64,000 nt of DNA from Thauera aromatica K172 (GTDB lineage: Bacteria; Pseudomonadota; Gammaproteobacteria; Burkholderiales; Rhodocyclaceae). The translations under genes were made by a program, and so were the position numbers. A model generated the notes under the pieces. That model saw only the letters and a list, made by a program, of their open reading frames with translations, was not told the origin of the DNA and ran no database searches. Positions 6,767 to 58,865 of this stretch are shown here, piece by piece. The stretch spans positions 3,418,041 to 3,482,040 of the forward strand of contig NZ_CP028339.1 of NCBI RefSeq assembly GCF_003030465.1. The letters run 5' to 3'. The stretch's first letter is position 1. Every line of letters starts with the position of its first letter.

Positions 6767-7945
6767 TCACTGCGCCGGGGCGGCCGGCGCCGCCCCCGCT
6801 TCCTGGGCCTGCACCGGCGCACCGGGACGGATCTTCTGCAGGCCTTCGACGACGACGCGCTCGCCGCTGGCGAGGCCGCCGGTGATCACCCAGCGTTCGC
6901 CGATCGACTGCGCGACCGTCACCGGGCGCGCCTCGGCCTTGCCTGCGCCATCGACCACCATCACCAGCGCGGTGCCGCGCGCATCGCGCGACAGCGCCGC
7001 ATGCGGCACCAGGATCGCATCGCTGCGCACGCCCTGCGGCAGGCGCGCACGCACGTACATGCCGGGCAGCAGCTCGCCCTTCGGGTTGGGAAAGCGCGCC
7101 CGCAAGGTAACGCTGCCGGTGCTCTCGTCGACGGTGACTTCGGACACCGCGAGGCGGCCTTCGGCGGCGTACTCGCTGCCGTCTTCGAGCATGAGCTTCA
7201 CCGGCACCTCGCCCTTCGCCCCCGCCTGCAGGCGGCCGGCGGCGATTTCGCGGCGCAGGCGCAGCAGCTCGACGCTCGACTGGGTGAGGTCGACGTAGAT
7301 CGGGTCGAGCTGCTGCACGGTGGCGAGCACGGCGTCCTGGTTGGCGGTGACGAGCGCGCCCGGGGTCACCGCCGAGCGGCCGATGCGCCCCGCGATCGGC
7401 GACTTCACCCGGGTGTAGTCGAGATCGATCTTCGCCTTCTCCAGCGCCGCCTTCGCCGCCGCGACCTCGGCCCGCGCCTGGCCGAGCGCAGCGGCGGCAT
7501 CGTCGTTGGCCTGGCGGCTGACGGCTTCGATCCTGACCAGCTCGGCGTAGCGTTCGCTCTTCAGGCGCGCGGCATGGAGGTTGGCCTCGGCGCGGGCGAG
7601 GTCGGCCGCGGCGCTGGCATGCACGGCCTGGTAGGGGGCGGGGTCGATCTGGTACAGGACCTGCCCGGCCCTGACCTCGCTGCCCTCGGTGAATGAGCGC
7701 TCCTTGACGATGCCGGTGACCTGGGGACGCAGTTCGGCGATCAGGTAGGGCGCGGTACGGCCGGGAAGCTCCGCCACCATCGGCACGGTCTCGGCGTGCA
7801 CCGTGACGACGGTGACCATCGGCGCCGGCGGCGGCGCCGACTGCGGCGCGGCACCGGGTTCGCCGCCGCTGCAGGCGGCGAGCAGGGTCGCGCTCAGCGC
7901 GGCGACGGCAAGGGAATCGAGCAGCGGGTTGCGACGGGTCTGCAT
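6767..7945 (-). CDS. RND efflux periplasmic adaptor (AcrA/HlyD family)
   Basis: The membrane-fusion lipoprotein that bridges permease and outer-membrane channel, 392 residues. The lipobox LLAAC sits about residue 24, so it is anchored to the inner membrane. The order is the usual one: lipoyl half-motif, a coiled-coil hairpin (about 95-165, Ala/Glu/Lys rich), the second lipoyl half ([17 protein letters not shown]), then beta-barrel and membrane-proximal domains, ending in a Pro/Ala-rich tail. It is first gene of the efflux operon and divergent from the TetR regulator, whose probable operator lies between them. Confidence 0.94.
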
Positions 7946-8020
7946 GAAGGGCGTCTCCGGACGAGGATCGGGCGACACTGCCGGCTCGGGACCGGCAGCG
8001 ACAAACCAGATCACTCGAAT

Positions 8021-8038
8021 GTTCATTCTAGATTGAAC
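8021..8038. promoter_or_regulatory. Probable TetR operator between efflux operon and regulator
   Basis: An 18-bp near-perfect palindrome, GTTCATTCTAGATTGAAC (arms mismatch only at one symmetric pair), lies in the AT-richer 165-bp gap between the divergent adaptor and TetR genes. The octamer TCATTCTA recurs at 8023-8030 and 8041-8048. Position and symmetry are what is expected of an AcrR-type operator controlling both directions; binding is inferred. Confidence 0.6.
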
Positions 8039-8110
8039 GCTCATTCTATGTTAGCCTTTGCTGCAATGCAAGATACGCGTGCGCCCGCCGCACGCCCAGG
8101 AGAACCCGCG

Positions 8111-8728
8111 ATGCCCGTCCCGCCCCCTTTCGCCGCCGAGCAGCCGCGCGCCGAAGCGCGCCGCCAGCAGATCCTGTGCGCCGCCGCCCAGTGCTTCCGC
8201 GAGCATGGCTTCCACGGCGCCAGCATCGCGCAGATTTCCAAGACCGCGGGCATGAGCGCGGGCCACATTTATCACTACTTCGAGAACAAGGAAGCGATCA
8301 TCGCCGCGATCGTGGCGCAGGATCTCGAAGACCTGCTGACCCTGACGGCAGAGCTGCGTTCGGCCAGCAACGTGCGCGCGGCGATGATCGAGCGCGTCGC
8401 CGAGGGCGTGCTCGATCAGCTCGACCCGCTGCGCGCCGGGCTGAAGCTGGAAATCGTCGCCGAAGCGGCACGCAACCCGCGGGTGGCCGAAATCGTGCGC
8501 GATGCCGACATCGCCTGCCGGCGCGGGCTCGCCGACACCATCCGCGACATCCGCCGCGCCGCCGGCCACGCCGACGACGAGGCCGCGATCGCGAGCATGG
8601 TCGAGGTCCTGGCGACGCTGTTCGAAGGCCTGCTGCTGCGCAGCATCCGCAATCCCGCGATCGACCACGCGCAGGTGATCCGCCGCATCCAGGCCGCGGT
8701 CGACGACCTGCTCGACCAGGAGTCGTGA
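8111..8728 (+). CDS. TetR/AcrR family repressor of the RND operon
   Basis: A 205-residue one-component regulator. The N-terminal helix-turn-helix is clear (REHGFHGASIAQISKTAGMS followed by HIYHYFENKEAI), with a C-terminal ligand/dimer domain. The start at 8111 is preferred because AGGAGA lies eight bases upstream; ATGs at 8048 and 8066 have no such site. It is divergent from the efflux genes with a palindromic operator between, so it most likely represses them and itself until an inducer binds. The inducer is unknown. Confidence 0.9.
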   Translation: MPVPPPFAAEQPRAEARRQQILCAAAQCFREHGFHGASIAQISKTAGMSAGHIYHYFENKEAIIAAIVAQDLEDLLTLTAELRSASNVRAAMIERVAEGVLDQLDPLRAGLKLEIVAEAARNPRVAEIVRDADIACRRGLADTIRDIRRAAGHADDEAAIASMVEVLATLFEGLLLRSIRNPAIDHAQVIRRIQAAVDDLLDQES

Positions 8729-8827: not shown

Positions 8828-11587
8828 TCAGTGCGCCTCGTCCCAGTTGTTCCCCGCACCGACCTCCACCAGCAGCGGCACCTGCAGCGCTGCGACCTCC
8901 CCCATCAGCCGCGGCAGCTCGGCACGGACCGCCTCCAGCTCGGCGCGCGGCACTTCCAGCACCAGTTCGTCATGGACCTGGAGGACCAGCTTCGACTTCA
9001 GCGCCGAGCTTGCCAGCCAGCGGCTGACCGCGATCATCGCCTTCTTGATCAGGTCGGCGGCGGTGCCCTGCATCGGCGCGTTGATCGCCGCGCGCTCGGC
9101 GGCCTGGCGGCGGCCGGCCTGCTGGGCGCGGATGTCGGGCAGGTAGAGGCGGCGGCCGAACACGGTCTCGACGTAGCCCGCCGCCTTGGCCTCGGCCTTG
9201 ATCCGCTCCATGTAGTCGGCCACGCCGGGGTAGCGGGCGAAGTAGCGGTCGATCCAGCCCTGCGCGGCGGCGCGCTCGATGCCGAGGTTCTTCGCCAGGC
9301 CGTGCGCGCTCATGCCGTAGATGAGGCCGAAGTTGATCACCTTGGCGTAGCGGCGCTGCTCGCTCGTGACTTCGGCCGGGGTGCAGCCGAAGACCTCGGC
9401 GGCGGTGGCGCGGTGCACGTCCTCGCCGCGGGCGAAGGCTTCGAGCAGGCGGGCATCGCCCGACAGGTGGGCCATGATGCGCAGTTCGATCTGCGAATAG
9501 TCGGCGGAGACGATGAGGTGCTCGCGCGGGGCGATGAAGGCGGCGCGGATGCGGCGGCCTTCGGGCGTGCGGATCGGAATGTTCTGCAGGTTGGGCTCGG
9601 AGCTCGACAAGCGCCCGGTGACGGCGGTGGCCTGGGAGAAGCTGGTGTGCACCCGGCCGGTGCGCGGATCGACCATGCGCGGCAGCTTGTCGGCGTAGGT
9701 GCTCTTGAGTTTCGACAAGCTGCGGTGTTCGAGCAGCAGCTTCGGCAGCGGGTAGTCCTCGGCGAGTTGGGTGAGCACGTCCTCGTCGGTGGACGGCTGG
9801 CCGGTGGCGGTTTTTTTCACCACCGGCAGGCCGAGCTTGACGAACAGGATTTCGCCGAGCTGCTTGGGCGAGCCGAGGTTGAAGGGCTGGCCGGCGAGGG
9901 CGTGGGCCTCGCGTTCGAGCTCGTGCACGCGGCGGCCGAGCTCCTCGCCGTGCTGGGCGAGCAGGAAGGGGTCGATCAGCACCCCGGTGCGCTCCATCTC
10001 GAGCAGCACTTCGAGTACCGGCAGCTCGAGGTCGCGATACAGCGCGGCCAGCCGCGGCGCGGCCTCGAGCTGGGGCCACAGCTTGCGGTGCAGGCGCAGG
10101 GTGAGGTCGGCGTCCTCGGCGGCGTACTCGGTGGCGCGCTCGATCGTGACCTCGTCGAAGCCGATCTGTTTGGCGCCCTTGCCGCAGACCTCGGTGTAGG
10201 GGATGGCCGTCAGGCCGAGGTGGCGGCGGGCGAGCGAATCCAGGTCGTGCGTCTTGTCGCTTTCGAGCACGTAGGATTCGAGCAGGGTGTCGTGGGTGAT
10301 GCCGCGCAGGGTGATGCCGTGGTTGGCAAGCACGTGGGCGTCGTACTTCAGGTTCTGGCCGAGCTTGGGGTGGCGGTCGGATTCCAGCCAGGGCCTGAGC
10401 TTGACCAGCACTTCGGCGAGCGCCAGCTGCGCGGGCAGGTCCTGGCCACGATGCGCCAGCGGCAGGTAGGCGGCCTCGCCCGGGGCGACCGCGAACGACA
10501 TCCCGACCAGCTTTGCCGCCATCGGGTCGAGGCTGGTGGTCTCGGTGTCGAAGGCGGTGAGCCCGGCGGCGCCGATCTTCGCCAGCCAGGCGTCGAACGT
10601 GGGCCAATCGAGGATCGCGACGTAGCCGCTGCGGTGGGCGCCGGGGGCGCACGGCGGGTCGTCCGCCACTGTGCCCTCGTCGGCGAAGCGGCGCGCCTCG
10701 GTCGCCGCCTTGGCGTCGGCGACGCTCGCCACTCCCGCCGCGGCGCCATCGAGATCCTTCAGCCAGCCGCGGAACTCGAAACGTTCGTACAGCGCGCGCA
10801 GCGCCGCCTTGTCGTCGTCGCGCGCGGGCAGCTCGTCAAGCGTCACCGGCAGGGCGAGGTCGGTCACCACCGTCACCAGGCGCCGCCCGAGGGGCAGGAA
10901 ATCGAGGTGCCGGCGCAGGTTGTCGCCGACCTTGCCGCCGACCTTGGCGGCGTTGGCGACCAGGGCGTCGAGGCTGCCGTACTCGGTGAGCCACTTCACC
11001 GCCGTCTTCGGTCCGCACTTCTCCACGCCGGGCACGTTGTCGACGGTGTCGCCGACCAGCGCCAGATAATCGACGATGCGCTCGGGCGGGACGCCGAACT
11101 TGGCGGTGACGCCGGCTTCGTCGAGCACCTCCTCGCTCATCGTGTTGACCCAGCGCACGCCCGGGCGCACGAGCTGGGTGAGGTCCTTGTCGCCGGTCGA
11201 GATCACCACTTCCCAGCCGCGCTCGAGCGCCTGGCGGGTCAGGGTGCCGATGACGTCGTCGGCCTCGACCCCATCGACCGCCAGCAGCGGCCAGCCTTCG
11301 GCCCGCACCGCCTCGTGCAGCGGCTCGATCTGGGCGCGCAGGTCGTCGGGCATCGGCGGACGGTGGGACTTGTAGTCGGGATACCAGTCGTCACGAAAGG
11401 TCTTCCCCTTGGCATCGAACACGCAGGCGCGGAATTCGGCCTTGTAGTCGCTTTCGAGGCGACGTAGCATCGACAGCACGCCCCGGATCGCCCCCGTCGG
11501 CTCGCCCCGCGAATTGCGCAGGTCGGGCAGGGCGTGGAAGGCGCGGTACAGGTAGCTGGAACCGTCGACGAGAAGCAAAGTGGACAT
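8828..11587 (-). CDS. polA: DNA polymerase I
   Basis: A 919-residue PolA with all three domains: N-terminal 5'-3' exonuclease (MSTLLLVDGSSYLYRAFHAL, VEADDVIGTL, STGDKDLTQLV), central 3'-5' exonuclease with the acidic FDTETTSLDP motif intact, and C-terminal polymerase with DYSQIELR (motif A), the O-helix region RRYAKVINFGLIYG (motif B) and QVHDELVLEVP (motif C). It fills gaps in repair and removes Okazaki primers. It is convergent with the TetR gene and divergent from the LOG gene. Proofreading residues are present, unlike in some bacterial PolA proteins. Confidence 0.97.
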   Translation of the reverse strand: MSTLLLVDGSSYLYRAFHALPDLRNSRGEPTGAIRGVLSMLRRLESDYKAEFRACVFDAKGKTFRDDWYPDYKSHRPPMPDDLRAQIEPLHEAVRAEGWPLLAVDGVEADDVIGTLTRQALERGWEVVISTGDKDLTQLVRPGVRWVNTMSEEVLDEAGVTAKFGVPPERIVDYLALVGDTVDNVPGVEKCGPKTAVKWLTEYGSLDALVANAAKVGGKVGDNLRRHLDFLPLGRRLVTVVTDLALPVTLDELPARDDDKAALRALYERFEFRGWLKDLDGAAAGVASVADAKAATEARRFADEGTVADDPPCAPGAHRSGYVAILDWPTFDAWLAKIGAAGLTAFDTETTSLDPMAAKLVGMSFAVAPGEAAYLPLAHRGQDLPAQLALAEVLVKLRPWLESDRHPKLGQNLKYDAHVLANHGITLRGITHDTLLESYVLESDKTHDLDSLARRHLGLTAIPYTEVCGKGAKQIGFDEVTIERATEYAAEDADLTLRLHRKLWPQLEAAPRLAALYRDLELPVLEVLLEMERTGVLIDPFLLAQHGEELGRRVHELEREAHALAGQPFNLGSPKQLGEILFVKLGLPVVKKTATGQPSTDEDVLTQLAEDYPLPKLLLEHRSLSKLKSTYADKLPRMVDPRTGRVHTSFSQATAVTGRLSSSEPNLQNIPIRTPEGRRIRAAFIAPREHLIVSADYSQIELRIMAHLSGDARLLEAFARGEDVHRATAAEVFGCTPAEVTSEQRRYAKVINFGLIYGMSAHGLAKNLGIERAAAQGWIDRYFARYPGVADYMERIKAEAKAAGYVETVFGRRLYLPDIRAQQAGRRQAAERAAINAPMQGTAADLIKKAMIAVSRWLASSALKSKLVLQVHDELVLEVPRAELEAVRAELPRLMGEVAALQVPLLVEVGAGNNWDEAH

Positions 11588-31996: not shown

Positions 31997-33070
31997 ATGC
32001 TCCAGCAAGTCCTGATGTTCGTCCTCGGTCTCGTCGTCCTCGTCGCCGGCGCGGAACTGCTGGTGCGCGGCGCCTCGCGGCTGGCGGTGTCCTTCGGCGT
32101 GTCGCCGCTGGTGGTGGGGCTGACCGTGGTCGCATTCGGCACCAGCGCACCGGAAATGGCGGTGTCGGTCGGCTCGGCGCTGGCCGGCAGCCCCGACCTG
32201 GCGATCGGCAACGTGGTCGGCAGCAACATCGCCAACATCCTGCTGATCCTGGGCATTTCGGCGCTGATCACGCCGCTGCTGGTGGACGAGCAGATCATCC
32301 GCCAGGAAATCCCGATCATGATCGGGGTCTCGGCGCTGCTCGTGGTGATGGCCCTCGACGGCCGGCTGAGCCTGCTCGAATCGGCGATTCTCTTCGGCCT
32401 CGTGCTGGCCTACACCGTGTTCCTGGTGGTGCAGTCGCGGCGCGCCTCGAAAGGGGTCCAGGACGAGTTCGAAACCGAACTCCCGACCTCGACCTGGGAC
32501 CGTCACTGGAGCGTGCAGCTGGCACTGATCGCGGTCGGCCTCGCGATGCTGGTGGTGGGCGCCGACTGGCTGGTCGATGCCGCAGTCGCCTTCGCCCGCG
32601 CCTTCGGCGTCAGCGACCTGGTGATCGGCCTCACCATCGTCGCCGTCGGCACTTCGATGCCCGAAATCGCCACTTCGATCGTCGCCGCGCTGCGCGGCCA
32701 GCGCGACATCGCCGTGGGCAACGTCGTCGGCAGCAACGTCTTCAACATCCTCGCCGTGCTCGGCGCCGCCGGCATCGCCTCGGGCGCCGGCCTGCCGGTC
32801 TCGGAGGCGGCGCGCAACTTCGACCTGTGGGTGATGCTCGCAGTCGCCTTCGCCTGCCTGCCGATCATGATCACCGGGCGCGAGATCGCACGCTGGGAAG
32901 GCGGCATCTTCCTCGGCTACTACGCCGCCTACACCGCCTGGCTGGCCCTCCAGGCTCAGCAGCACGCCAGCCTGCCCGCCGTCTCCAGCGTCATGCTCGG
33001 CTACGTGATGCCGCTCACCGTGATCACCCTGGTGGTCAGCATCGTGCGCCACAACGGCAGCCGGCGCTGA
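31997..33070 (+). CDS. CaCA-family calcium/sodium antiporter (YrbG type)
   Basis: A 357-residue inner-membrane exchanger of the CaCA superfamily. The two inverted alpha repeats are evident: VVAFGTSAPEMAVSVGSALAG with GNVVGSNIANILLILG, and VAVGTSMPEIATSIVAALRG with GNVVGSNVFNILAVLG; the Glu residues in each are the ion ligands. About ten membrane helices. It likely exports Ca2+ against Na+ or H+. Not linked to the B12 genes that follow. Confidence 0.93.
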   Translation: MLQQVLMFVLGLVVLVAGAELLVRGASRLAVSFGVSPLVVGLTVVAFGTSAPEMAVSVGSALAGSPDLAIGNVVGSNIANILLILGISALITPLLVDEQIIRQEIPIMIGVSALLVVMALDGRLSLLESAILFGLVLAYTVFLVVQSRRASKGVQDEFETELPTSTWDRHWSVQLALIAVGLAMLVVGADWLVDAAVAFARAFGVSDLVIGLTIVAVGTSMPEIATSIVAALRGQRDIAVGNVVGSNVFNILAVLGAAGIASGAGLPVSEAARNFDLWVMLAVAFACLPIMITGREIARWEGGIFLGYYAAYTAWLALQAQQHASLPAVSSVMLGYVMPLTVITLVVSIVRHNGSRR

Positions 33071-51898: not shown

Positions 51899-52678
51899 AT
51901 GCGCTACCAGCTCGAACTTTTCTTCACCGCACTCGGTTTCTTCACCCGCCTGCCGGTGCCGGCCTGGGTGCCGTGGTCAACCGAGCGCCTGAACCACGCC
52001 GCGCGCTACTTCCCGCTCGTCGGCTGGGTGGTGGCGGGAATCGGCGCGGCGAGCTACCTCGCCCTCGCCCAGCTGCTGCCGCCCGCGCTCGCCGTGATCC
52101 TGTCGATGGCGGTGACCATCCGCGCCACCGGCGCCTTCCACGAGGACGGCTTCGCCGACGCCTGCGACGGCTTCGGCGGCGGCTGGGACAAGGCACAGGT
52201 GCTGACGATCATGAAGGACTCGCGCATCGGCAGCTACGGCACCGTCGGCATCGTGCTGATGCTGCTCGCCAAGGCTGCGGCCCTGCTCGAACTGGCGGCG
52301 GCCGGCGGCGGGCCCGCGGTGGCGCTCGCACTCTTCGTCGCCCACCCGCTGTCGCGCCTGGCCTCGACCAGCCTGATCCACCTGCTGCCCTACGTGCGCG
52401 AGGACGAAACCGCCAAGTCGAAGCCGCTCGCCAAACGCCTGACGCCGGCCGAACTCGCCATCGCCGCCGTCTTCGGCCTGCTCCCGCTGGTCTGGCTGGC
52501 GCCGGCGCAGGCGCTCGCCGCGGTGGCCGCGGTGGCCGGCGTCACCGCCTGGGCCGCGCGCATCTTCGTGCGCCGCCTCGGCGGCTACACCGGCGACCTG
52601 CTCGGCGCGACCCAGCAGGCAGCGGAGCTCGCCTGCTATGCCGGCCTGCTCGCCGGCGCGCGAGCGATCGCCCTGTAG
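51899..52678 (+). CDS. cobS: Adenosylcobinamide-GDP ribazoletransferase (cobalamin synthase)
   Basis: A 259-residue membrane enzyme with six or seven helices that joins AdoCbi-GDP and alpha-ribazole (phosphate). [17 protein letters not shown] is the active-site motif, with [11 protein letters not shown] and the C-terminal [16 protein letters not shown]. The final ~100 bp of this gene and the 20 bp after it recur, diverged, three more times within the next 3.5 kb; this copy is the intact one. Confidence 0.95.
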
Positions 52679-52701
52679 CCGCGCGCACCGGCGCGGTCCT
52701 C
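52581..52701 (+). repeat. cobS 3'-end repeat, native copy
   Basis: The reference copy: it runs from the codons for GGYTGDLLG through the cobS stop TAG (52676-52678) and about 23 bp beyond. A 34-bp segment (52668-52701, including the stop codon) is identical to 54902-54935, and 52581-52601 is identical to 53369-53389 (21 bp). The repeat ends one base before the stop codon of the minus-strand ParE-type gene. Confidence 0.85.
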
Positions 52702-52702
52702 G

Positions 52703-53017
52703 TCATGCGCCGAAGTCGTCCCGGAAGCGCTCGATCTGGTGCATCCGCTCGTGCAGGAGGGTGACGATGCCGATATCGCCGTTCGAAAGCCGGCGCCAGT
52801 AGACGACGTGCCGTTCGTAGCGGAAGAAGTAGCCCTCGATGCCGAACTCGGCGGGGATGGGCCTGGATGATGTGCGGTGGGTATCGATGCCGTCGAAGGA
52901 CTCGAACAGGCCGGAAATGTAGCGGTCGGCTTGTTCCGTGCCCCAGCGATCGCGCGTGTAGCGATAGATCTCGTCAAGCCTCCAAGACGCCGCCTCCTGG
53001 ATCAGGACCTGAGCCAT
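52703..53017 (-). CDS. RelE/ParE-family toxin
   Basis: A 104-residue toxin of the RelE/ParE superfamily: LDEIYRYTRDRWGTEQADRYI, then EGYFFRYERHVVYWRRLSNGDIGIVTLLHERM, which has the R-Y-x-V/I-Y-W core of ParE-type toxins (partial motif). ParE members poison gyrase; RelE members cut mRNA; the ParD-like partner favours ParE. Four bases after the antitoxin stop, so one operon. Its stop codon abuts the cobS 3'-end repeat. Confidence 0.85.
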   Translation of the reverse strand: MAQVLIQEAASWRLDEIYRYTRDRWGTEQADRYISGLFESFDGIDTHRTSSRPIPAEFGIEGYFFRYERHVVYWRRLSNGDIGIVTLLHERMHQIERFRDDFGA

Positions 53018-53021
53018 GCCG

Positions 53022-53282
53022 TCAGCCTCGATTGCGCGCGATCACGTCGGCGGCGGCAAGGGGGCGGTACGAGTTCTCCGGAGCGGCAAAGGCATGGGCC
53101 AGTTCGGCCTTCAGCCGGTCGAAGGCTTCCTGCTCCTTGCGTTCCTTGTCGCGACGAATCAGGTCGCGCACGTATTCGCTGACATTCTCGTAGTCACCAT
53201 GCTCGCCCACGTTGGCGGCGACGAAATCGCTGAGCGGTCCGCGGAGGCGAACCGTCATGGTCGTGGTCGTTGTCCGGGACAT
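53022..53282 (-). CDS. ParD/CopG-type antitoxin
   Basis: An 86-residue antitoxin with an N-terminal ribbon-helix-helix (TMTVRLRGPLSDFV, VSEYVRDLIRRDKERKEQEA) and a charged C-terminal tail that should wrap the toxin. It probably represses its own operon at the GTATTC/GAATAC dyad just upstream. Precedes the toxin as usual for ParDE. Confidence 0.85.
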   Translation of the reverse strand: MSRTTTTTMTVRLRGPLSDFVAANVGEHGDYENVSEYVRDLIRRDKERKEQEAFDRLKAELAHAFAAPENSYRPLAAADVIARNRG

Positions 53283-53305
53283 GCCTGGCTCCTGTTGCGG
53301 TCAAT

Positions 53306-53332
53306 GTATTCAATATAATCAAAAATGAATAC
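53306..53332. promoter_or_regulatory. Inverted repeat upstream of the ParD-type gene
   Basis: GTATTC (53306-53311) and GAATAC (53327-53332) flank 15 AT-rich bases, 24 bp upstream of the antitoxin start. Position suits an autoregulatory operator overlapping the promoter. The same heptamer arms (TGAATAC/GTATTCA) form the RelB operator further along. Confidence 0.5.
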
Positions 53333-53368
53333 GCCGGCAAACATCCGGCAGGCTCTTCCTTGCCCGGT

Positions 53369-53410
53369 GCGGCTACACCGGCGACCTGCCCGGGGCGCTG
53401 GAGCATGCCG
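53369..53410 (+). repeat. cobS 3'-end repeat, copy A, 5' half
   Basis: The first 21 bp are identical to the cobS codons for GGYTGDL at 52581-52601; similarity then weakens to about 53410, where it stops. The other half of such a repeat begins at about 54834, on the far side of the AAA ATPase gene, as if the ATPase segment had been inserted into a cobS-tail copy. 53411-53599 holds no gene; it becomes AT-rich toward the ATPase start and likely contains its promoter. Confidence 0.7.
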
Positions 53411-53599
53411 CCTCACCAACGACTACCAAAGGATGGGGTTTGTGGAGCGCTTACGGTGATATCGACCCCGAAGAGGCATTAATCACCTCGGTGGCCCTCC
53501 AAAACTCACACGCGACCACATGCAATCATCACCTATAGTAAAATTTGCGAAGTTATTCAATTGCTGTAAATTCTAAAATTTATAGATAAACTGCACTGC

Positions 53600-54787
53600 A
53601 TGGACCCTATCCGCAATCCTTTTTCCCCCGGCGCTGGCACTCCGCCCCCCGAACTTGCCGGCCGTGATGACCTGCGCGAATCCTTGCGCATCGCGCTCGA
53701 GCGCGCCAGGATCGGTCGCCCGGCGAAGAGCGCCATGCTGGTCGGCCTGCGCGGTGTCGGCAAGACGGTACTGCTGGACCGCATCAGGATGGATGCCGAG
53801 GCGGCCGGCATCCACACGGCCCGAGTCGAGGCGCCCGAAGGGCGTTCACTGCCAGCCCTGCTTTCACCTCAGTTGCGTCAGGCTCTGCTGCGCCTGAGTC
53901 AGATCGCGGCCGCGAAGGACTACGCCGTGCGCGGTCTGCGTGCGCTGGCGGGTTTCGTCCGCAAGCTCAAGGTCACTTTCGGCGATATTGAGGTGGGCAT
54001 CGACTACGAGCCCGAGCCGGGCTTGGCCGACAACGGCGATCTTGAGCACGACCTGCAAGCGCTGTTCGAGCAAGTCGGCCTAGCGGCCAAATCGGCCAAC
54101 ACGGCCCTGGCGATCTTCATCGACGAACTGCAATACGTGGAGGAGGTGCAACTGGCAGCCCTCATCACGGCAATACATCGGACCGAGCAGCGGCAGTTGC
54201 CCATCGTTCTGGTCGGTGCAGGTCTGCCACAATTACGAGGGCAGATGGGGAACGCTAAGTCGTATGCCGAACGCCTGTTTGATTTCCCCATGATCGGACC
54301 GCTGCCGCCCGCCGCAGCCCGCCTCGCAATCGAGAAGCCAATCGAGAACGAGGGCGAGGCGATCACCGAACGAGCCGTGAGCCAGATACTGCAGGTCACC
54401 CAAGGCTACGCATACTTCCTGCAGCAGTGGGGCAGCCACACGTGGCAGGCGGCGCAGGCATCACCGATCGATATCGATGCCGTCAATGCAGCGTCCGTCA
54501 CCGCCGTGGCGGCGCTCGATGAGAGCTTCTTCCGCGTGCGCTTCGACCGCCTCACCCCGAAAGAGAAAAAGTATCTCCGTGCAATGGCCGAGTTGGGCGA
54601 AGGCCCCCACAGATCGGGTGACATCGCCACCTGCTTCAACGCAGCAGTGTCTTCACTGGCGCCGACACGCAGTTCCCTGATCACCAAGGGCATGGTCTGG
54701 AGCCCCAACCACGGTGACACCGCCTTTACGGTGCCGATGTTTGATGAGTTCATGAAGCGGATCATGCCGGGGAACGACTGGCGCTGA
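53600..54787 (+). CDS. AAA-family ATPase, function unknown
   Basis: A 395-residue P-loop ATPase of the AAA_16/Orc1-like type. The start GRDDLRESLRIALER precedes Walker A GLRGVGKT (49-56); Walker B is IFIDELQYV (about 170) with sensor-like VLVGAGLPQ. A C-terminal winged-helix-like part follows (FDRLTPKEKKYLRAMAELG, SSLITKGMVWS). No second domain or partner gene is adjacent, so role (defence, regulation, NTPase toxin partner) is open. AT-richer upstream and flanked by halves of a cobS-tail repeat, hence probably acquired. Confidence 0.85.
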   Translation: MDPIRNPFSPGAGTPPPELAGRDDLRESLRIALERARIGRPAKSAMLVGLRGVGKTVLLDRIRMDAEAAGIHTARVEAPEGRSLPALLSPQLRQALLRLSQIAAAKDYAVRGLRALAGFVRKLKVTFGDIEVGIDYEPEPGLADNGDLEHDLQALFEQVGLAAKSANTALAIFIDELQYVEEVQLAALITAIHRTEQRQLPIVLVGAGLPQLRGQMGNAKSYAERLFDFPMIGPLPPAAARLAIEKPIENEGEAITERAVSQILQVTQGYAYFLQQWGSHTWQAAQASPIDIDAVNAASVTAVAALDESFFRVRFDRLTPKEKKYLRAMAELGEGPHRSGDIATCFNAAVSSLAPTRSSLITKGMVWSPNHGDTAFTVPMFDEFMKRIMPGNDWR

Positions 54788-54833
54788 TCGTGCTTGGCTG
54801 CTTTCGGTGCGCACGCTCATCCGCAGTAGGAGC

Positions 54834-54959
54834 CAGCGGGCTCCTGCAGCAGGCGACGAAACTCGCCTGCTATGTCGGCCTGTTGACAGGCGTGGGAAGA
54901 GTCGCCCTGTAGCCGCGCGCACCGGCGCGGTCCTCACCCACGCTGCGTGCAGCACGATC
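54834..54959 (+). repeat. cobS 3'-end repeat, copy A, 3' half
   Basis: Aligns to the last ~75 bp of cobS and the region after its stop. The cobS reading frame is kept and would encode LACYVGLLTGVGRVAL followed by TAG, against [16 protein letters not shown] in the real gene. 54902-54935 is identical to 52668-52701. Its last 22 bp (54938-54959) are shared with copy B at 56100-56121 but not with the native copy. The RelE-type stop codon starts 1 bp later. Confidence 0.8.
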
Positions 54960-54960
54960 G

Positions 54961-55227
54961 TCAGCGGTAAACCTCGCCCCGGTTGCCAAGTTGCACGACC
55001 AGCACCCGCATCCGGCCGTCTTGCAGATCGCAGATCACTCGGTAATCACCCACCCGATAACGCCACAACCCACCCAGCGGGCCGGTAAGCGCCTTGCCGG
55101 CGCTGCACGGGTCGCCGCTGCCGACCACCCGACCGTCGAGGTAGTCGAGGATGCGACGGGCCGTGGGCTTGTCCAGTCCGCGCAACTGCTTGAGCGCGGT
55201 GTCGGTGTAATCAATCATCCAGGCCAA
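54961..55227 (-). CDS. relE: RelE-family mRNA-interferase toxin
   Basis: An 88-residue RelE toxin: IDYTDTALKQLRGLDKPTARRIL, LTGPLGGLWRYRVGDYRVICDL and the C-terminal VLVVQLGNRGEVYR, with the Arg and Tyr residues used for ribosome-dependent mRNA cleavage. Overlaps the antitoxin gene by 17 bp, typical of RelBE. Its stop abuts a cobS-tail repeat. Confidence 0.9.
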   Translation of the reverse strand: MAWMIDYTDTALKQLRGLDKPTARRILDYLDGRVVGSGDPCSAGKALTGPLGGLWRYRVGDYRVICDLQDGRMRVLVVQLGNRGEVYR

Positions 55228-55438
55228 GATCCGCCCTCACGTCAGCGGCGGAGTGCACCGGCTCCTGACCCTTGCGCACACGTTCGAGCACATCGGCGGA
55301 GAGGTAGTAATCCTCCATGTCCTCGATGCCCTGCTCGATGATCTGCCGCAGGTAGAACGCCTTGCTGCGGCCGGTGGTGGTAGCAAGCAGATCAAGCCGA
55401 CGCTCGATCTCGGTATCAAGTCGGATGGAAGTAGGCAT
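55211..55438 (-). CDS. relB: RelB-family antitoxin
   Basis: A 75-residue ribbon-helix-helix antitoxin: MPTSIRLDTEIERRLDLLATTTGRSKAFYLR then an acidic C-terminus ending ADLGLDD. The start at 55438 is chosen because upstream codons run through the operator palindrome. Autorepression at 55448-55469 is expected, with RelE as conditional co-repressor. Confidence 0.88.
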   Translation of the reverse strand: MPTSIRLDTEIERRLDLLATTTGRSKAFYLRQIIEQGIEDMEDYYLSADVLERVRKGQEPVHSAADVRADLGLDD

Positions 55439-55447
55439 GATCGCCCC

Positions 55448-55469
55448 TAATGAATACGTGTATTCATTA
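55448..55469. promoter_or_regulatory. RelB operator palindrome
   Basis: TAATGAATAC and GTATTCATTA, a perfect pair of 10-bp arms around a central GT, lies 9 bp upstream of the RelB start codon. This is a typical RHH antitoxin operator overlapping the promoter. Confidence 0.7.
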
Positions 55470-55540
55470 AAGCACAAGGCGGAGACGACGTCGACGCGCC
55501 GCCCGGCCATCGATGCAGTCGAGAATGGGGCGCCGCCGCT

Positions 55541-55982
55541 TCAACCACTCATGCCCAGGCTGAGCAGCCCCACCATCGACTTGACTGATCGTGTCAAAAC
55601 CGGGGCTGCGTTCCCCCGAAAGAGCTTTGTAGAGGCTTTCGCGGGAGAGCCCGGCGTCTCTGACGACCTGAGCCATGCCTTTAGCGCGGGCAATGTCACC
55701 AAGCGCTTTGGCAATGAAGAGCCTGTCAGAAATTTTGCGCGCGAGGCGTAAGGCGGCCTTGATGTCCCTGGCCTGAATGCTCTTGTCGCCACCGGCCAGC
55801 AGAATGATCAGCTCACGCCCTCGCTGCTTGAAATACACCCGGTAGCCGGGACCGTAGTTGATTCTCAGCTCGGAGACACCTTCGCCAATAGGCTCGACAT
55901 CGCCGGGATTTCCACCGGCAAGACGCTCAATTCTGGCTTGGACTCGCGCCCGCGCCTGGATGTCGCGCAAAGTGTCGAGCCA
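55541..55982 (-). pseudogene. Decayed HigB-HigA-type toxin-antitoxin pair (fused, truncated, frameshifted)
   Basis: Toxin-like residues (WLDTLRDIQARARVQARI, GVSELRINYGPGYRVYFKQRG, LLAGGDKSIQARDIKAA) run without a stop into antitoxin helix-turn-helix residues (FIAKALGDIARAKGMAQ, DAGLSRESLYKALSG). A deletion removed the toxin stop and roughly the first 40 antitoxin residues. The toxin start (about 12 residues) is missing: homology begins exactly where the cobS-tail copy B starts. After SPGFDTI the frame shifts; the lost antitoxin end (KSMVGLLSLGM) is readable in another frame to 55541. Clearly a remnant. Confidence 0.75.
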
Positions 55983-56121
55983 CTCCGGCGACCTGCTCGG
56001 GGCGCTGCAGCAAACGGCGGAACTCGCCTGCCATGTCGGCCTGTTACACAGGCGCGCGAGTGATCGTCCTGTAGCAGCGCACACCGGCGAGGTCCTCATC
56101 CACGCTGCGTGCAGCACGATC
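55981..56121 (+). repeat. cobS 3'-end repeat, copy B
   Basis: The most complete extra copy: it spans the region for SGDLLGALQQTAELACHVGLL through the position of the cobS stop and on to the shared 22-bp downstream end (56100-56121). A one-base insertion relative to cobS after GLL shifts its frame, so it is not a working C-terminus. 55985-56000 is identical to cobS 52590-52605. Its left edge coincides with the truncation point of the HigB-like toxin. Confidence 0.8.
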
Positions 56122-56226
56122 ACTTCGTGACCAAGACGGTTGCGCATGGGCACGAAGGGTCAGTCACTTAGCGGCCACCGACTTCTGCCGACCCGTTACT
56201 GCCGTTGAGCTTATAGGGAAGCTGTC

Positions 56227-56286
56227 ATTCAACGAACAAGGTAAGCCGGCCGCCCTAGGCGGCTCGACCTGACCGCAAAGTTAGAT
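56227..56286 (-). repeat. attC-like integron recombination site
   Basis: Read on the minus strand, ATCTAAC (RYYYAAC, complement of 56280-56286) and GTTGAAT (GTTRRRY, complement of 56227-56233) bound 60 bp whose centre folds into a GC-rich hairpin (CAGGT/ACCTTG and GCCGCC/GGCGGC around TAGG). It begins one base after the stop codon of an AT-rich minus-strand gene, where a cassette attC should be. No integrase is in the window. Similarity is to the consensus, not checked against a covariance model. Confidence 0.5.
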
Positions 56287-56366
56287 GTTAGCGTTTATTA
56301 TTAATGTTGACTGCATAAAAATTAATATATTGAATTGTTCCAACTCCGGAATTCACCATGATTTTA

Positions 56367-57820
56367 GGCTCTATGCCGTTTCCAGTGGAAATTGACTTCT
56401 CAACAGACATGAGCATCGGTGGTACAACCGCCCAACGCTGACAGTAACCGTAACCTCGCACCGCATGAACACCCAGATCGAAGCCCTCTTCACCACCGCA
56501 CTTGGCCTGCAGCCGCCCTGGCACGTTGCCAAGGTCGAACTCAACACGGGCAAGCGCCGGATCGACTTCGAGGTCGAGCACACCGGTCGTCGTGCCGCGT
56601 GTCCGGCGTGTGGAGCCGAGCACCAGTTGGTCCACGACCGCGTGCGGCGCAGCTGGCGTCACCTGGATTTCTTTCAGTTCGAAGCGTGGCTGCATGCCGA
56701 GATCCCGCGTGTGCAGTGCAACGGCTGCGGCAAGACCACGCAGTTGCCGGTGCCGTGGGCGCGTGAGGGGAGCGGCTTTACCCTGCTGTTCGAGGCGCTG
56801 AGCCTGTCGCTGTGCCAGGAGATGCCGGTGAGCCAGGCAGCCAACCTGTTGCGGGTTGCGCCCAAGCGCCTGTGGCGTCGGGTGCGCCATTACGTCGAGG
56901 TGGCCCGTGCCAAGGACGACATGTCGGGCGTGCGCTACGTCGGGATCGACGAGACCAGCGTCAAGCGCGGGCACGCGTACATCACCGTCGTGCATGACCT
57001 TGAAGCCAAGCGCTTGCTGTTCGCCACACCAGGCCGCGATCACGTGACGGTGCAGGCCTTTGCGCAGGACATGCGCGCGCACGGCGGCGACCCGCAGGCC
57101 ATCGAGCATGCCTGCATCGACATGAGCGCAGCCTACGCCAAGGGGATCGGCCAGTCGCTGCCCAATGCCCAGATCAGCTACGACCGCTTTCATGTCGTCG
57201 CGCTGGCAAGCGCGGCGATGGACGAGGTCCGACGCGAAGAGATGCGCAGCTCCGCGGCAGCGGTTCGTGAAGCGGTCGGCGCACAGAGCAAGAAGACGCT
57301 GCGCCAGCTGCTGTGGGGGATGCGCAAGAACCCGGTGAGCTGGACCCGCGCTCAGTTCGAGGCGATGCACTGGCTGCAGCGTTCGAATCTGAAGAGTGCG
57401 CGCGCCTGGCGCCTGAAGCAGGCACTGCGCCTGGTCTACAGCGAAGCGGGCGCGAGCAACAGCGAGGAGCTCGCGCACGGGGCGATGTCGAAATGGTTGA
57501 GCTGGGCACGCCGCAGTCGCCTGGAGCCCTTCAAGCGGCTGGCCGCCACGCTGAAGGCGCACCTCGGTGGCGTCGTACGCGGCATGCTCGACGGTCGCAG
57601 CAACGCCTACGTCGAAGCGATGAACGGTCTGCTCCAGCAGACCAAGACCGCCGCCCGAGGCTTCCGCAACATCGACAACTTCATCGCCATGGCCTACCTG
57701 CGCATGTCTAAGCTCAAGCATCTACCGAACAACCCCTTGGTGCCGGCCATCCCCCGCGACTACGGGCGCTACCGTCATGTCTGTTGAGAAGTCAATTTCC
57801 ACTGGAAACGGCATAGAGCC
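56367..57820 (+). mobile_element. Intact ISL3-family insertion sequence
   Basis: A 1454-bp element bounded by 46-bp perfect inverted repeats (56367-56412 and 57775-57820, beginning GGCTCTATGCCGTTTCC) and an 8-bp target duplication TGATTTTA (56359-56366 and 57821-57828), the duplication length typical of ISL3. One transposase gene fills it. Intact ends and matching duplications indicate a recent, potentially active insertion. Confidence 0.95.
56465..57787 (+). CDS. ISL3-family transposase
   Basis: A 440-residue DDE transposase. N-terminal zinc finger (CPACGAEHQLVHDR, then CNGCGKTTQLPVPW), helix-turn-helix, and a DDE domain with VGIDETSVKRGH, IDMSAAYAKGI and YVEAMNGLLQQTK supplying the three acidic residues. 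Reading frame is complete and ends inside the right inverted repeat, as usual for compact elements. Confidence 0.93.
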   Translation: MNTQIEALFTTALGLQPPWHVAKVELNTGKRRIDFEVEHTGRRAACPACGAEHQLVHDRVRRSWRHLDFFQFEAWLHAEIPRVQCNGCGKTTQLPVPWAREGSGFTLLFEALSLSLCQEMPVSQAANLLRVAPKRLWRRVRHYVEVARAKDDMSGVRYVGIDETSVKRGHAYITVVHDLEAKRLLFATPGRDHVTVQAFAQDMRAHGGDPQAIEHACIDMSAAYAKGIGQSLPNAQISYDRFHVVALASAAMDEVRREEMRSSAAAVREAVGAQSKKTLRQLLWGMRKNPVSWTRAQFEAMHWLQRSNLKSARAWRLKQALRLVYSEAGASNSEELAHGAMSKWLSWARRSRLEPFKRLAATLKAHLGGVVRGMLDGRSNAYVEAMNGLLQQTKTAARGFRNIDNFIAMAYLRMSKLKHLPNNPLVPAIPRDYGRYRHVC

Positions 57821-58865
57821 TGATTTTAACTCTGGCGGACGATTTTTTTTTGGAAAATGCAGAGAACTCAGGCAAGTCATTATCGATTGTCCATGTGGCA
57901 GAATCACCCTTTAATTCATTGTATTTTCCCATTGCGAGATCACTTTTTCTTGGGAGTGTTTCTATTGACTGCACCAAAATCTGATTTTCTAAATCGTATT
58001 TAACTAAAGAAATATTTACATACCTGTTATCTGTTACAAAATTTATATGCAATATCTTGTTTTTTGATTTTGCCACTTCTGATGCGTCAAGTGTAGCATT
58101 ATCATATGTGTTGTATTGCCAATTCTTTGTATTTAGCTGATTCATTATGACACCTTCATACACGGTAAATGCATCGTCGCTTGATATTTGAAGTGCATTT
58201 TTTATGTGATCAGTTATTTTCTTGTCGTCGCCACTAAGGCTTTCATAGCCGCCTAATGCCCATGAATTTAGACTAAATATGGCAAGAAAAATAAATACTT
58301 TAATTTTCATAAGAAATCTCGTTTGGTTGGTAAAAAATTTTGTAACTACTCAGTAGGCCCCACCGGTTCAGCAATTCAAGCGAATCGAGGCTAATGACAT
58401 CCCATTACACATAACTCAACCTGATTAGCAATGAACCTCAGCGGTCCGAATCGCGCGCTGCGGGAGCGGCCCGCAGTTGGCTGCGGCGACGAGCAGGCGC
58501 GTATGCAGTGCCCGGAGATCGAATCGGCGGTTGAAGCGGTAGGCGAAAGCGGCGAGGTAACGCGCCGCATACTTTCGGAAGTCGAATGCATGGTAGCTCC
58601 CGTTCAGACTGGTCTTGAGGTTGCCCAGCACGGTGTTGATCCACTGGAATTCGGGCAAGTCCTTCGGTTTGCGTCCAGCGACGACGGTCGGCTGATGCGT
58701 GCATCCAGCCGCCGTGACCGCACCGAAACACGCCAGCCCATCGGAGAACACAGTGCTGCCGGGGGCCAGATGCGTCGTCGCCCACTGCCCGATCGCCTGG
58801 AGGCTGAAGCCCGGTACGGGCGTGAGTTTGGCGCGCAGTAAGCGGTAACTGACCGGCGTCCTTGC

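Follow-up and report, generated by a model that had tools for sequence, protein, structure and literature searches.

The gene cobS of Thauera aromatica K172 is separated from cobC, the gene that usually follows it, by 11.4 kb, and this junction contains further copies of the 3′ end of cobS alternating with toxin–antitoxin modules and an ATPase-bearing segment (Table 1). The name cobS was given in a preliminary description of this DNA, and we take it to be correct on the basis of CobS relatives and of what is generally known of the family. We analysed a window of 64,000 nucleotides (bases 3418041–3482040 of contig 1) from a genome assembled in two contigs, with 99.95% completeness and 0.12% contamination. 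cobC lies at about window position 64071, outside the window. The whole case comes from this one genome.

Table 1 Features at and downstream of cobS, in window coordinates (T, tail of cobS; TA, toxin–antitoxin)
Feature	Position	Strand	Content	Basis
cobS	51899..52678	+	Adenosylcobinamide-GDP ribazoletransferase	Open reading frame (ORF); CobS relatives in 35 of 61 genomes
T1	52581..52701	+	Tail copy 1: end of the working cobS plus 23 bp past the stop	Window self-comparison, site comparison
TA1	52702..53367	-	ParE-type toxin (52703–53017), ParD-like antitoxin (53022–53282) and upstream region up to T2	PF05016; TIGR02606 below cut-off
T2	53369..53405	+	Best read as the 5′ part of the second tail copy	Window self-comparison
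ATPase segment	53406..54843	+	AAA_16 gene (53600–54787); appears to split the second tail, with an 8-bp near-repeat at its edges	Profile match
T3	54844..54959	+	Best read as the 3′ portion of tail copy 2; frame open for 21 codons up to a stop, followed by ancestral flank
TA2	54961..55475	-	RelE/ParE-type toxin (54961–55227) and RelB-like antitoxin (55211–55441)	PF05016, NF048017
TA3	55476..55984	-	HigBA-type remnant; toxin and antitoxin apparently fused by deletion, toxin start missing	TIGR02683 and TIGR02684 in one frame
T4	55985..56121	+	Tail copy 3, frameshifted; original end of cobS, now displaced	84% over 268 bp to the cobS end and flank of genome G025
Motif and attC-like site	56189..56286	+	46-bp recurrent motif (56189–56234) and attC-like site (56227–56286); ends the ancestral flank
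ISL3	56465..57787	+	ISL3-family transposase gene, inserted behind the attC-like site	Profile match

Copies of the cobS end and the genes between them

The copied block corresponds to the last 120–140 bp or so of cobS. Comparison of the window with itself aligns T3 with T4 over 117 bp (84.6%, E = 1.7e-29), T1 with T4 over 122 bp (82.0%, E = 8.7e-27) and T1 with T3 over 89 bp (83.1%, E = 3.5e-19). It also returns all three exact stretches listed in the preliminary description: 34 bp with zero mismatches (52668–52701 and 54902–54935), 21 bp common to T1 and T2 (52581–52601 and 53369–53389, with the first mismatch at 52602) and 22 bp common to T3 and T4 (54938–54959 and 56100–56121, with the last mismatch at 54937). 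As a control, we drew 121-bp pieces at random from the window, up to 200 in all, skipping draws at 51.5–57 kb. Five pieces had a same-strand match at E ≤ 1e-4 within the next 4 kb, the best of them at 4.7e-9 versus 3.2e-30 for the cobS tail. In a search of its own genome, the cobS tail matches four places down to E = 2.2e-5, and the next match follows at 5.1e-4. The tail repeats are real and well above chance.

Four diverged copies had originally been counted, and the number is best read as three. T2 covers just the 5′ portion of the tail and T3 just the 3′ portion, and the two meet at an 8-bp near-repeat (CTGGAGCA at 53398–53405, CTGCAGCA at 54844–54851). They are therefore read as a single copy interrupted by the ATPase-bearing segment, so that the tails are T1, T2+T3 and T4; four independent copies were rejected because T2 and T3 hold complementary parts. 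One copy had also been credited with an intact alternative cobS C terminus. The open codons of T3 agree with this up to the stop, but T3 lacks the upstream part of the tail and T4 is frameshifted.

All tails lie in direct orientation and are closely spaced, with end points that differ (after 52701 versus after 54959). T2 begins at the equivalent of cobS position 52581 and T4 at that of 52590, an offset of 9 bp, and the sequence common to T1 and T4, CCGGCGACCTGCTCGG, starts only at 52590. When 21-bp windows are ranked by conservation across 25 cobS genes of the genus, the one starting at 52581 is 28th of 760 and the one starting at 52590 is 120th.

Judged by sequence, T4 is the original 3′ end of cobS, continuous with the ancestral flank, because it runs on into the flank that follows cobS in G025, the nearest genome by CobS (93%). 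The matching stretch of the window, 55979–56244, stops at the attC-like site, which consists of ATTCAAC, a variable hairpin and GTTAGAT. The 46-bp motif that precedes this site has 20 occurrences, spread over 14 of 29 genus genomes, T. aromatica K172 and G025 included (loci L215–L233). A strict GTTRRRY follows the motif by 40–115 bases at six of these places (letter shuffles give a mean of 1.3, and six or more in 2 of 1000), and G025's own site fails the strict pattern. The fold of the site in the window is weakly unusual (z -1.69), and a query spanning 56122–56310 has one match in the genome of origin. We call the site attC-like, an identity as attC being short of proof. The 46-bp motif may be a common 3′ end, with a terminator-like hairpin, of integron cassettes in the genus.

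TA1 and TA2 are gene-sized units whose homology to copies elsewhere ends at the tails. The DNA of TA1 (52702–53371) is 89% identical to a copy among genes of the integrative and conjugative element (ICE) type on a Pseudomonas veronii plasmid (NZ_CP039632.3) and 87% identical to a copy in genome G595. With queries extended well past the module, homology to these two outside copies spans 52702 to 53371–53372, tail edge to tail edge. Matches to TA1 occur in 6 of the 29 genus genomes, none at cobS and with module identity of at most 78%, and among these genomes there is no donor as close as the ICE-type copy. The module was found in 6 of 300 sampled genomes of the order and, at E ≤ 1e-60, in 3 of 369 of the class (all counts include T. 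aromatica K172), and was not found in the E. coli genomes searched.

In G595 (locus L250), a 321-bp direct repeat (90%; 7880–8197 and 9344–9664) flanks the segment that bears TA1, and the repeat is the 5′ end of a PFL_4669-type ICE gene. This repeat was set aside as a second example of a stranded gene end and is not used here; a decayed or tandem ICE is probably the simpler reading.

The RelB-like antitoxin of TA2 scores above its family cut-off, and the module has matches in 8 of the 29 genus genomes, that of T. aromatica K172 included. In four of them (G011, G012, G027 and G008) its homology starts at 54961; the end falls at 55475 in three of the four and at 55467 in the other. TA3 is a dead HigBA-type remnant, in which both families lie in one frame and the stretch found between toxin and antitoxin in relatives is missing. 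Five cargo proteins checked have no match to known defence families.

The edges of the cargo agree with those first described. The stop codons of the TA1 and TA2 toxins start at 52703 and 54961, with one base between each and the end of a repeat, and the toxin homology of TA3 in the nine relatives compared ends at 55982–55984, at the start of T4, as expected for a third toxin cut at a repeat edge. A homology edge at a toxin stop codon is not counted as proof of discrete mobility, because such edges are partly expected wherever flanks are unrelated.

Two further repeats occur in the window. A 47-bp perfect inverted repeat (56366–56412 and 57775–57821) brackets the ISL3-family element, and a 152-bp direct repeat of 70% identity lies at 32091–32241 and 32601–32751, 510 bp apart.

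The cobS–cobC junction across the genus

cobS is present, whole or in part, in 27 of the 29 genus genomes (the misses are G011 and G021), and its junction with cobC is readable on one piece in 24 of the 27 (not in G020, G024 and G026). The gap between the two genes measures 84 bp or less in 15 of these 24 genomes and 215 and 282 bp, with no convincing gene, in two. It holds genes in the remaining seven: T. aromatica K172; G025 (VapB, a PIN-domain protein, a transposase fragment and a Fic gene); G009 and G005 (a MazE/AbrB-like antitoxin, below cut-off, and a PIN-domain toxin); G027 (the same kind of antitoxin and a cut-short toxin); G004 (proteins apparently similar to those of G009, G005 and G027); and G007 (a DUF4143/AAA_14 gene). 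These empty sites and different cargoes, together with tails that bound the cargo in the window, support the earlier proposal that cargo was acquired repeatedly at the 3′ end of cobS.

The junction proteins scanned against Pfam, which do not include all small ORFs, yielded no recognisable tyrosine or serine integrase. The families found are ISL3, IS66, IS1595 and Tn5-type transposases, toxin–antitoxin proteins, AAA and Fic, and two ORFs have no family. Likewise, none of the 23 other readable genus junctions has an integrase-bearing element at the cobS end. The preliminary statement that no integrase is present holds for these proteins but not for the genome, which encodes an integron integrase on contig 2 (21129–22516; TIGR02249, 508 bits), with a second partial match adjoining it. 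The same model scores above cut-off in 12 of the 29 genomes, this second contig included, and gives sub-cutoff matches in 14 of 14 control genomes.

Among 33 other loci, each searched with its own cobS end, there is no comparable second tail adjoining cobS. The matches outside cobS were to the shared start of cobC, which lies within the query, or were short and weak, the best to the coding part having E = 1e-5. A whole-genome search with T4 found one match each in 18 other genus genomes, which was native cobS in all but G021, where it spans 28 bp; the search found no stranded tail, and 10 of the 28 other genus genomes gave no signal, even from their own cobS. In a set of 80 loci, 25 were checked for tail copies and gave short matches only, the best of 37 bp (E = 4e-7, L112). 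The pattern named at the outset as speaking against acquisition, a single ancient tandem duplication in identical order in every genome, did not appear in these searches.

Contig 93 of G023 (L068, 1–203) carries a cut-off cobS end at the contig edge with cobC directly after it. G023 has 8% contamination, and this second cobS end probably belongs to a second strain in the bin. In G006, the final codons of cobS (L058, about 2250–2310) resemble those of the PIN-domain toxin found at the G009 junction (L056, about 2945–2980), as though deletion of the toxin–antitoxin pair had joined cobS to the end of that toxin.

Origin of the tails and accounts of the insertions

Between the window and G025, the later body of cobS has 13 differences in 324 sites and the tail has 11 in 93 (Fisher p = 0.009), whereas the corresponding figures for G025 and G023, 45 of 324 and 11 of 93, show no rise in the tail. 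Among 11 close pairs, the ratio of tail to body differences is highest for the window and G025 (with the tail taken as 66 sites). Within the window, T1 and T3 differ at 15 of 89 columns, all within the first 55 (P = 3e-4). At 52611, 52627 and 52654, T1 has the state of G023, and T4, with T3 where present, that of G025. From these few sites, the tails look largely like one lineage, in which the middle of T1 alone seems to be of different origin. The earlier idea that each cassette brought its own version of the tail has little support in this pattern: past the stop T1 does not differ from T3, both group with T4 at two sites, and only the middle of T1 deviates, at three sites.

The account that we tentatively favour, while giving it somewhat less than an even chance, is that the junction took in cargo at least twice by tail swap, wherein DNA carrying a cobS end and a toxin–antitoxin module crossed over inside cobS. 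The crossover would have fallen in or next to the conserved GGYTGDL codons, at about 52581–52603, and the working cobS would have received a complete tail from the incoming DNA while its old tail was stranded downstream. In the order that we infer, a first event would have left TA2 and TA3 with a new tail on one side and T4 on the other, and a second would have placed TA1 between T1 and the tail of the first event (T2+T3), which the ATPase-bearing segment would later have split. General (RecA) recombination or one-sided illegitimate recombination with the DNA of close relatives may have driven both events. If the crossover lay in the gene, the copied part would run from the GGYTGDL block to just past the stop because the gene survives only if the incoming DNA supplies the rest. 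The middle of T1, which is out of line with the other tails, the edge-to-edge homology of TA1, the conservation of cobS where T2 and T4 start (the block from 52581 being the better conserved) and the continuity of T4 with its flank are counted in favour of tail swap.

Several observations weigh against it. T1 and T3 are identical over 34 bp that span the stop; positions 52663 and 52683 group T1, T3 and T4 against both G025 and G023; and at 52649 and 52652 T3 has the same states as T4. Because the 3′ parts of T1, T3 and T4 thus look like one lineage, any donor would need to be a close relative, unless the copies were made locally. The starts of T2 and T4 also differ in the bases at which they fall (52581 versus 52590). 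Searches of the other genus genomes and of the plasmid, phage and viral collections PLSDB, INPHARED and IMG/VR turned up no donor of a cobS tail, where the IMG/VR search used one exact pattern and degenerate peptides and could miss a diverged tail. Finally, the junction cargo of other genomes (VapBC, ATPase) sits there without stranded tails, a distribution that also does not establish the cobS end as a dedicated attachment site.

Local copying is the basis of the main rival, which we consider rather unlikely. Repair of a staggered break, template switching or unequal sister joining would capture a toxin–antitoxin fragment just past the cobS stop, and the last 120–140 bp of cobS would be copied on the far side of it, like a very long target duplication. 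There would be no incoming tail, and the middle of T1 would have been altered later by allelic recombination. This duplication-coupled capture accords with the single lineage of the 3′ parts of all three tails, with the 34 identical bases that the two youngest share across the stop and with the failure to find an outside source. However, the insertion points lie past the stop, so copying the tail would bring no benefit, yet on two occasions it would have taken in almost the same interval (starts 9 bp and ends 20 bp apart), and the odd middle of T1 is not explained by the duplication itself.

Site-specific integration, which is less probable again, would have used a tyrosine recombinase that acted in trans or has since been lost. 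Its core would lie in the GGYTGDL codons, each attachment site would carry a replacement cobS end, and the units would be integrase-less remnants in tandem. The anatomy is as for icd, many tRNA genes and the accretion of cis-mobilizable elements (CIMEs), and T1 and T2 share 21 bp at the presumed core. Set against this are the matching of T4 to cobS from 52590 only, rather than from 52581, the junction without a recognised integrase, the 23 other genus junctions without stranded tails, and units of exactly one toxin–antitoxin module, which are unlike decayed elements.

It is very improbable that the cobS end was duplicated in tandem long ago and that the modules and the ATPase entered afterwards, each on its own, between the copies. 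The tails are direct and near each other, and across the genus the junction accepts unrelated insertions, but both modules would have had to hit tail–tail junctions exactly, and tail ends that differ do not make one repeated unit. Furthermore, G025 has the ancestral flank with no second tail seen beside its cobS. Repeats are a classic source of misassembly, but an assembly error or chance similarity can be practically dismissed with an assembly of such completeness in two contigs, copies that differ by 15–18% (and so are not collapsed or copied reads) and E values down to 1.7e-29.

Known systems and significance

Insertion at a gene end with displacement of the old end is a known kind of event. 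In the passages of PMC10111431 on such integration, the phage attachment site attP of elements at icd and many tRNA genes carries replacement sequence, with an identity block of up to about 250 bp, and icd is the attachment site of e14 according to the relevant part of PMC5431349. As set out there, the case is like that of cobS in that the gene keeps a complete, partly different 3′ end with the old end displaced past the insert, and the copied blocks of 120–140 bp are within the described range. It is unlike it in that at cobS no integrase is recognised, there are no prophage or island genes, the units measure down to 666 bp and the insertion is repeated. As at icd, T4 continues into the ancestral flank and T1 completes cobS; T1 may have come with an element.

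CIMEs, as the pertinent sections of PMC5704250 describe them, are elements without integration genes, derived by decay from ICEs or integrative and mobilizable elements with functional attL and attR, and they can undergo accretion. cobS differs from that description in having no known parent element at the site, and an att role of the repeats would be hypothetical here. We class the cobS case neither with icd and e14 nor with CIME accretion because the defining integrase was not found.

Homology-facilitated illegitimate recombination is comparable in its one homologous and one illegitimate end, its lack of a recombinase and a gain of about 1 kb of foreign DNA, as far as the portion of PMC3240628 on its products goes. 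As a rule, recipient DNA of comparable length is missing from those products, and the join shows 3–10 bp of microhomology, whereas the recipient DNA at cobS is duplicated rather than deleted. By eye, the joins between TA3 and T4 and between TA1 and T2 overlap by about 0–1 bp.

The attC-like site behind T4 and the integron integrase in the genome recall integron cassettes at attC and attG sites, and toxin–antitoxin genes occur as integron cargo. However, the cobS tails are not attC sites, a possibility rejected by eye, and there is no attC at the end of each unit: by eye, none was seen at the edges of TA1 or TA2, and the only attC-like site in the junction is the one behind T4. Our literature searches found no paper that combines any three of toxin–antitoxin, cobS, insertion hotspot and Thauera, and nothing related on Thauera with integron and attC.

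The repetition of such insertions without a recognised integrase, and with exact toxin–antitoxin cargo, is the unusual variant here, and we regard the junction as an unusual insertion record and not as a proven new mechanism. As a long shot, the cobS end could be a homology-anchored docking site, an integrase-free cassette array in which units of tail and toxin–antitoxin module exit as circles and re-enter by general recombination at the GGYTGDL codons. If so, each new unit would renew the end of the host gene and stay linked to an intact B12 gene.

To our knowledge, the movement of small toxin–antitoxin modules as gene-sized units without a recombinase of their own is not settled. At cobS, two unrelated modules, both with relatives elsewhere, are sharply bounded, every step has left a dated relic of the target gene and sister species have empty sites, so that a mechanism could be tested directly. 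Even if the process is merely homologous or driven by repair, the junction would remain a clear example of insertional growth tolerated at a conserved gene end.

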